DNA from: Nymphaea colorata
Lineage: Eukaryota > Streptophyta > Magnoliopsida > Nymphaeales > Nymphaeaceae
Assembly (NCBI RefSeq): GCF_008831285.2
Contig: NC_045140.1
Coordinates: forward strand, 25,810,131-25,874,130
Length of the DNA: 64,000 nt
Direction: 5' to 3'
The position numbers and the translations under genes are program-made. This document shows positions 62,065 to 63,906 of the stretch, one piece after another (position 1 is the first letter of the stretch; the number at the start of each line of letters is the position of its first letter). The notes beneath the pieces are model-generated. The model did not search any database, had not been told where the DNA came from, and was given only the letters and a program-made list of their open reading frames with translations.

Positions 62065-63906
62065 ATGAAAATTGTCGTGAGAGATTCGACCTTCGTCCCT
62101 CCATCTAGTGAGATGCCTCGACAAGGGCTATGGCTCTCAAAGTTGGACCGTGCAATGGTCAGTGCTCATGTCCCGTGCGTCTACTTTTACAGACCAAACG
62201 GTAGCAGCAATTTCTTCGACACTAAAGTGATGAAAGAATCTTTGGGAAGAGCCCTCATTCCCTTCTATCCTTTCGCTGGAAGACTACGTCGCCGCGAGGA
62301 TGGTCCATTAGAGATCAACTGCAACGGAGATGGCGTTCTCTTTGTGGAGGCAGATGCAGAGGGTGAGATAGATGATTTTGGAGACTTCGCTCCCTCCATG
62401 GAGCTCAGGCAGCTGATCCCTAAAGTTGACTACCAAAATCAAGACATCTCCTCCTACCCTCTCCTCATGCTTCAGGTAACAATTAGTAATTGACATCTCA
62501 TAATTAGGCCAAGGACATGTAACCAATATTAGAACCGAAGGGACGATATATATATACACTAGACACTTAGGTCAATGATAAAACCAGACCCTTTACATTT
62601 CTGTATATTAAATTTATGTTGGTTATGATTTCAAGAGGCCATTTGTTCGATGTTTCACTTTTGGGATCCAGATCTAGTTCACATTTTCATATAAGAACCT
62701 GCTTTTACCCAATTCTACCTAATCCAGTTGTATGTAATGTGCTACCAGCGGATTCAACTTTTTGAAAACTGAATTGGGATCTTTTTAATGTAAGATACCG
62801 AATTTATGTGCAGCAAGATCGGATGTTTTATGGGTGTTTGTTATTCTCATATGTAAGATCAAATGTGATTTGAGATAACTAGGAATTTTAGATACGATGA
62901 CTTGATGTTATATATATATATATATATCTCAAATCCTCTTTTTCACATGATGTTGAAATCTAGTGTGTTTGCTCTAAGGTTCACCTGATCATTAAAATGG
63001 TAGGTCACATTCTTCAAATGCGGAGGAGTCTGTCTCGGGGTTGGTATGCATCATTTGGTGGTGGATGCATGTGGGTTCATACATTTCATGAACTCTTGGT
63101 CTGATGTGGCTCGGGGCATGGAGGTAATTTGCCCCCCAATCGTAGAGCGGACCATCTTAAGGGCAAGGAACCCACCAAGGCCCGCCTTTGAGCACCCAGA
63201 GTACAAGGCACCAGAACGGAGGGTACTTGCAGAGGTTCCGTTGGAGCAAAAACTCCTAAATACCCCAATCTCTGGGGCAATTTTCAAATTCAGCAGAGAT
63301 CAACTGGTCAGGCTCAAGGAGAAGGTCAAGGAAGGTGACAATAGCACTACCAGGTATACTACATTTAACAGCCTGGCTGTGCACATCTGGAGGTGTGTTT
63401 GCCTGGCCAGAGGCCTTGATGATCTGCAGCTCACCAAGTTAAAGGTTTCCGTAGATGGCCGGAAAAGACTCCGGCCGGAGATCCCAAACCATTACTTCGG
63501 GAATGTGGTCTACACTATGGTTGTGCCACTGGTCTCCGGCGATCTCAAATCGCAACCTATGCATTATGCTGCCAGCAAGGTCCACGATGCGTTGCTTAGG
63601 ATGGATGACGATTACTTGCGGTCGGCACTCGACTACCTCGAGCAGCAGCCCGACCTGGGTGAATTGTTTGATAGGGCTGCCCTCCAAAGAAGGTCGGATT
63701 TGAGCATTAATAGTTGGGCCAGGCTGCCGGTCCACGATGCTGATTTTGGGTGGGGAAAACCCATCTATATGGGAACCGTGTTCCTAACAGTCGATGGAAT
63801 GGGGTTGGTTTTGCCTAGCCCTTCCGATGATGGCAGCCTTTCGGTAGTGATCACCTTGCAAACTGACACGATGAGATCTCTCGAAAAGTTGATTTACGAT
63901 ATATGA
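62065..63906 (+). CDS. Diverged HCT-like BAHD acyltransferase, acceptor unknown
   Basis: I join exon 1 at 62065-62475 and exon 2 at 63004-63906 (CTTCAG|GTAACA, GGTAG|GTCACA, intron 528 bp) to 437 residues. The start [20 protein letters not shown] aligns with HCT. The catalytic motif is HHLVVDA (His154, Asp158); the glycine that normally follows is alanine. DFGWG is at 384-388. Positions that contact shikimate in HCT are changed: Thr36 to Val and Ser38 to Cys (HVPCVY), the Arg of VRGAHT to Asp360, and the Thr of ITSW to Asn373. The fold and acyl-CoA chemistry should be kept but the acceptor is probably not shikimate. There are no frame breaks in a region full of pseudogenes, which argues for function. 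Loci E and G are broken copies of this clade. It is cytosolic by family, with no signal peptide seen. Confidence 0.9.
62909..62928. repeat. (TA)n in the acyltransferase intron
   Basis: A run of about 20 bp. Locus G has a longer version flanked by an 18-bp inverted repeat (GATCCAATGTGATTTGAG) at about 49050-49128. Confidence 0.8.

Follow-up and report, generated by a model that had tools for sequence, protein, structure and literature searches.

At the right edge of a 64,000-nucleotide stretch of the Nymphaea colorata genome (the window; contig C3, 25,810,131-25,874,130) lies a gene related to HCT, the hydroxycinnamoyl-CoA:shikimate hydroxycinnamoyltransferase. The locus raises the question whether this gene still encodes a working enzyme and whether that enzyme still acts on shikimate. 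A preliminary description had read it as an intact HCT paralogue in which an Asp at the position of the shikimate-binding Arg would disfavour a carboxylate acceptor, with an amine or neutral alcohol as possible alternatives. We consider it likely that the gene is functional, belongs to a small BAHD subfamily derived from HCT and no longer has shikimate as the main acceptor of its enzyme.

Gene model and kinship to HCT

The gene, referred to as the candidate, comprises the following features:

62065..62475, plus strand: exon 1, codons 1-137; open frame from ATG with the GT donor next to it; aligns to HCT from residue 1
62170-62172, plus strand: Val36, within exon 1
62176-62178, plus strand: Cys38, within exon 1
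62476..63003, plus strand: intron, 528 bp, GTAACA..TGGTAG
63004..63906, plus strand: exon 2, codons 138-437 and TGA; matches PF02458 by itself at 6.8e-66
63052..63066, plus strand: catalytic HXXXD motif, H154-L-V-V-D158
63067-63069, plus strand: Ala159 in place of Gly, directly after HXXXD; Ala in all three intact clade members
63670..63675, plus strand: Asp360-Arg361 (GAT AGG) at the arginine-handle position of HCT; Asp-Arg in all three clade members
63709..63711, plus strand: Asn373 at the shikimate-contacting Thr369 of HCT; Asn, Ser or Ala within the clade
63715-63717, plus strand: Trp375, retained, equivalent to Trp371 of HCT
63742..63756, plus strand: DFGWG motif, residues 384-388

Splicing from the GT at 62476 to the AG at 63003 yields a protein of 437 amino acids with zero internal stops, which matches PF02458 over its full length (353 bits, 2.2e-105; residues 1-433 against profile positions 1-430 of 434). 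The two-exon structure is shared with the HCT-type genes of the same genome, and the intron site (after the LQ codons, before VTFF) is common to the candidate, its two intact relatives P2 and P3, the HCT-type copy A of the window and an HCT-type gene on contig C4. The candidate is a real, intact BAHD acyltransferase gene. Structure prediction from exon 2 alone, run without an alignment, gave a mean pLDDT of 33.5 and no usable model.

With the candidate protein as query, the top five among 37 distinct matched solved sequences were HCTs, the closest being 5kjv (554 bits) and 4g0b (552). Identity to HCT is 49-60%, and PF02458, HXXXD, DFGWG, Tyr40 and the catalytic Trp are shared with the enzymes AtHCT (5kjs/5kjt), coffee HCT (4g0b) and sorghum HCT (4ke4). 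Residues were mapped using a MAFFT alignment to AtHCT, CbHCT, CcHCT, SbHCT, PvHCT2 and copy A. In this alignment Val36, Cys38, His154, Asp158, Ala159, Asp360 and Asn373 of the candidate correspond to Thr36, Ser38, His153, Asp157, Gly158, Arg356 and Thr369 of AtHCT, and Tyr40 and Trp371 of HCT are retained, the latter as Trp375. The exchanges at 36, 38, 360 and 373, the Ala after HXXXD and the conserved His154, Asp158 and DFGWG are thus located where the preliminary description had placed them. The candidate retains 89 of the 106 columns invariant across six HCTs, RAS and SHT, and 157 of the 222 columns invariant in the six HCTs, compared with 160 for rosmarinate synthase.

In the BAHD phylogeny, a check that the preliminary description had proposed, the candidate, P2 and P3 form one clade (support 100/100). 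The clade joins the HCT-type genes of the same genome with weak support (70/82 with AtSHT, 81/84 without it); a tree with AtSDT added was mostly unresolved. The stem of the clade measures 0.64 changes per column, whereas the two HCT-type genes of the genome show 0.10 and 0.15; the branch of rosmarinate synthase was 0.51 with AtSHT included and 0.80 without it.

The tandem array and the constraint on its intact members

P2 and P3 were found in a 40-kb stretch of contig C3 that begins with 4.1 kb shared with the window. They are located 7 and 30 kb downstream of the candidate and are 82-86% identical; the P3 sequence as analysed lacks its final residue, and the 40-kb stretch holds further fragments. 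The copies used for comparison are:

C3 25879665-25882165: P2, intact candidate-type gene, two exons, zero internal stops
C3 25902250-25904123: P3, intact candidate-type gene, two exons, zero internal stops
21177..22885 of the window, minus strand: copy A, intact HCT-type gene of 439 amino acids that retains the Arg and Thr of HCT; in-genome comparison
29233..31789 of the window, plus strand: relic E of the candidate subfamily, first part of exon 1 with its 5' flank, carries a stop
47326..49395 of the window, plus strand: relic F of the candidate subfamily, end of exon 1, intron and first part of exon 2 (HHLVVDE); carries a 5-base gap and a stop

A genome search with the candidate protein returned at least 100 matches, and 96 of 163 first-look candidates were scored. 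After the candidate's own exon 2, the best matches listed were exon 2 of P2 and of P3 (85% and 80%). Because the best listed match outside the array was the HCT-type gene on contig C4 (58% in exon 2, 70% in exon 1), the subfamily appears, as far as this search shows, to be restricted to one tandem array in the genome. The array holds three BAHD types. HCT-type copies are on the minus strand, and those in the window besides copy A are broken or partial; candidate-type copies are on the plus strand and are represented in the window by relics E and F besides the candidate; the third type is marked by HHTMVxGLAALHF. Two fragments of this third type lie at 38380-38549 and 52774-52976 of the window (plus strand; HHTMVDGLAALHF and HHTMVGGLAALHF). 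In both, the HXXXD region is followed nearly at once by the C-terminal end, read in a different frame, and they apparently share one large internal deletion, seen twice. Near the left end of the window (6235-8183, minus strand), open frames with MA3 and MIF4G domains represent an eIF4G-like translation initiation factor gene.

All three intact members carry Val36, Ala159, Cys160, Phe162 and Asp360-Arg361, and they vary at position 373 (Asn, Ser and Ala) and at position 38 (Cys, Ser and Cys). The proposal that the pocket changes mark a whole local clade therefore holds for Val36, Ala159 and Asp360-Arg361, but not for Asn373 and Cys38. It had been based on a broken copy with HHLVVDE, termed locus G, which we take to be relic F (here its stretch 48549-49395). 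The Gly after HXXXD is indeed lost in both genes, but the candidate reads HHLVVDA, so that the replacement residues differ. Relic F is uninformative on Asp360 and Asn373 because it ends before the 360-373 loop.

Pairwise dN/dS was 0.32 for candidate and P2, 0.56 for candidate and P3 and 0.51 for P2 and P3, each below 1 (p 6e-10, 0.002 and 8e-4, respectively). For counts on single lineages, codons were assigned where two of the three genes agree, and the 25 codons differing in all three were left out. On the candidate lineage, 26 synonymous changes (294 sites) stand against 26 codons with an amino-acid change (1014 sites), a ratio of 0.29 (p 8e-6). The corresponding ratios were 0.28 for P2 and 0.97 for P3, in which constraint is not visible. 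P2 and P3 share 94% of their DNA over 456 bp around exon 1 compared with 88% in exon 2, which suggests sequence exchange between them. Such an exchange would blur the assignment to branches, but the candidate's result is unchanged when exon 2 is taken alone (ratio 0.26, p 3e-4). Since synonymous changes outweigh amino-acid changes on its own lineage, the candidate is not a decaying copy; it is under constraint. This confirms the preliminary reading as an intact HCT paralogue, with a stop-free frame of 437 residues, a constrained lineage and HCTs as closest relatives. A pseudogene reading is rejected for the candidate by the constraint on its lineage; P2 or P3 may be pseudogenes. At codon 375 (candidate numbering) P2 has Met in place of the catalytic Trp of HCT, and its lineage nonetheless looks constrained. 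Given this Met and the ratio of P3, not every member of the subfamily need be active.

Comparisons with the relics and with non-coding DNA were also made. Candidate and relic E differ at 25 residues, of which 16 could be polarised with the six HCTs; the relic accounts for 12 of these changes and the candidate for 4. Constraint on relic E itself was unsupported, as its exon 1 is not slower than the flank in the comparison with the candidate (38/264 versus 78/754 differences, p 0.09). Within residues 32-38 (62158-62178), beside the acceptor pocket, the two sequences differ at 32, 33, 34 and 38, and at these positions neither matches any of the six HCTs (four of eight such residues). Candidate and relic F differ at 11 of 227 coding and 51 of 528 intron positions (p 0.03). 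The global intron and upstream alignments of P2 and P3 were misaligned by large indels; in local pieces, alignable non-coding DNA of candidate and P3 had about the same identity as the exons. For this reason the intron-exon contrast was set aside and dropped as proof of constraint.

A gene that became inactive recently and has not yet acquired a stop would look intact as well. The remaining BAHD copies of the window are mostly broken or incomplete, P2 has no catalytic Trp, and Gly158 of HCT is gone from the candidate, all of which would fit such a history. Against it, the candidate lineage is significantly constrained in both exons, and the neutral chance of escaping a stop by substitution is about 0.03 per gene for the three genes, at 0.09 changes per site. 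We therefore regard recent inactivation as very improbable, and the candidate is probably an active BAHD enzyme.

Concentration of change at acceptor contacts

The departures from HCT were scored at 217 columns that are invariant in seven HCT-type sequences (C4, copy A, At, Cb, Cc, Sb and Pv). At 53 of them candidate, P2 and P3 all differ from HCT; one of these columns is a gap in two of the three. As contacts we used 29 acceptor or catalytic residues reported for HCT, rosmarinate synthase and AtSHT (in excerpts of PMC13119808, PMC6203249, PMC10892161 and PMC7838080), which occupy 19 columns, of which 16 are HCT-invariant; the list is short and mixes several enzymes, and the Fisher test assumes independent columns. 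Departures were found at 9 of 16 contact columns versus 44 of 201 others (p 0.0046), at 15/32 versus 38/185 when one neighbour was added (p 0.003) and at 21/46 versus 32/171 with two neighbours (p 0.0004). When column 360 was scored as a retained Arg, the contact departures dropped to 8/16 (p 0.028). The acceptor pocket had been described as rebuilt, and this clustering bears out that it is changed.

Rosmarinate synthase (6mk2), a known acceptor switch, served as yardstick. Like the candidate it is a relative of HCT with a changed acceptor pocket and a similar load of change, and it departs at 9/16 contact columns versus 52/201 others (p 0.017); with neighbour columns added, significance was lost (p 0.053 and 0.067).

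Compared with HCT, the candidate has Val for Thr36, Asn for Thr369 and Ala for Gly158, the 360-373 loop and the GPGGI loop are strongly altered, and the handle Arg is displaced or replaced. As the gene is intact, constrained and closest to HCT, with its changes clustered at acceptor contacts, a loss of shikimate preference is likely. The candidate has most likely left shikimate and probably acts on another compound.

Another reading of the gene is a fast-evolving HCT or HQT that still uses shikimate or quinate by way of Arg361. The candidate retains Trp375 and Tyr40 together with much of the core, and in P3 the Arg361 can be read as the handle. This reading is nevertheless quite improbable: Thr36 and Thr369, both reported contacts of HCT, are lost in all three members, and the stem of the clade is far longer than the branches of the HCT-type genes in the same genome.

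The arginine handle and the putative acceptor

In AtHCT the arginine handle, Arg356, binds the carboxylate of shikimate. Arg361 of the candidate directly adjoins Asp360 and is invariant in the three genes. The handle loop has 17 residues in the candidate and in the HCT of contig C4 (P2, VDRAGFQRRLDLNISSM; P3, VDRGGHQKRSGLSIASW). In register, the Arg of HCT is matched by Asp in candidate, P2 and P3. For P3, a gapped global alignment scored 3 to 14 points above the in-register alignment with four of four HCTs and three gap penalties, and a seven-HCT profile placed its R-G-x-H on the R-G-x-H of HCT with the Asp as an insertion. Of 2000 shuffles of the P3 loop, 6, 22 and 3 reached the observed gain from shifting and 10, 15 and 42 reached the shifted score (three HCTs each). 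For candidate and P2, in contrast, the in-register alignment with Asp at the handle is optimal and the gain is ordinary (523-952 of 2000 shuffles). Parsimony from the codons of the three genes slightly disfavours Gly362 and His364 of P3 as ancestral, which counts against the register shift.

The handle Arg of AtHCT is located on a flexible loop, with a simulated maximum r.m.s.d. of 13.2 Å (PMC6203249). MlAT6 with the exchange R355A is inactive (PMC10892161), and in PvHHHT the exchange of Thr35, His150, Trp386 or Arg414 for Ala left 2-8% of wild type (PMC11847488). A literature text search for the motif and for named arginine-handle mutants returned unrelated papers only, and the excerpts of PMC11875395, PMC13033379 and PMC10585174 contain general statements and nothing on the residues at issue. 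Regarding a supply of the lost Arg and Thr by neighbouring residues, which the preliminary description had considered, all three genes have an Arg at the adjacent position, but position 373 (Asn, Ser or Ala) offers no evident substitute for the Thr.

Extended from the preliminary description, a rival reading would be that Asp360 replaces the handle Arg, that the enzyme uses an amine or neutral alcohol and that its products are hydroxycinnamic amides. All three members have Asp at column 360 and Val at 36, and the in-register alignment is optimal in two of them. The pockets of AtSHT and AtSDT are described as negatively charged (PMC7838080), and red clover HDT of clade Vb acylates the amine of L-DOPA and other aromatic amino acids (PMC8641662). 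Such amino acid acceptors carry a carboxylate as well. The step from the exchange of Arg for Asp to an amine proved weak: Arg361 adjoins the Asp in every member, rosmarinate synthase has Gln at handle column 356, and the spermidine contacts of AtSHT (6lpv) are absent. AtSHT holds spermidine by Asp314, His411 and Asp416 among others (PMC7838080); the candidate, 35% identical, has Thr308, Leu398 and Met403 there, and AtSHT itself has Gln at column 360 with Asp one column later. Val36, Cys38 and Ala159 have parallels elsewhere among BAHD enzymes: AtSHT has a hydrophobic residue (Ile) at 36, AtSDT has Cys at column 38, and vinorine synthase reads HIPF and HKIADV, with a hydrophobic residue at 36 and a residue other than Gly after HXXXD. 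We consider the Asp360 proposal improbable; its neutral-alcohol part overlaps with the preferred reading, so that the odds of the readings do not sum to one.

Rosmarinate synthase accepts a carboxylate acceptor, and Lys396 is among the potential contacts of the product's carboxylate (PMC10892161). Since this enzyme has no handle Arg, loss of the handle does not exclude a carboxylate acceptor. Its Lys396 and Tyr398, both close to the acceptor carboxylate, correspond to Met403 and Leu405 of the candidate (47% identity).

For the reading preferred here, a working enzyme that has left shikimate, the reaction can be outlined as follows. His154 would deprotonate the OH (or NH) of the acceptor, as in other BAHD enzymes, and the deprotonated acceptor would attack an aromatic acyl-CoA bound in the core, most of which is conserved, with Trp375 stabilising the intermediate. 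Shikimate would be displaced as main acceptor by the loss of Thr36 and Thr369 and by the strong alteration of the segments 155-162, 306-313 and 392-405. The arginine handle may persist one residue along as Arg361, paired with the new Asp360. With the handle possibly kept in this way, a hydroxy-acid with a carboxylate, or a neutral alcohol or phenol, is a more likely acceptor than a polyamine.

A more far-reaching scenario, possible though unlikely, is a lineage-specific three-gene subfamily derived from HCT with an acceptor class so far unassigned to BAHD enzymes of clade V. A one-residue insertion by the handle would have created the Asp-Arg pair and retuned the acceptor charge, and the pockets of the tandem copies would then have diversified.

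Lignin and chlorogenic acid depend on HCT as a key enzyme, and paralogues with changed acceptors add to the diversity of plant phenolics. Events of this kind are already known, as in the step from HCT to rosmarinate synthase and others. Here, one genome, and mostly one array, holds two HCT-type genes, intact relatives with a changed pocket, and broken copies. Taken together, these copies make the steps of an acceptor switch datable and testable by mutagenesis.
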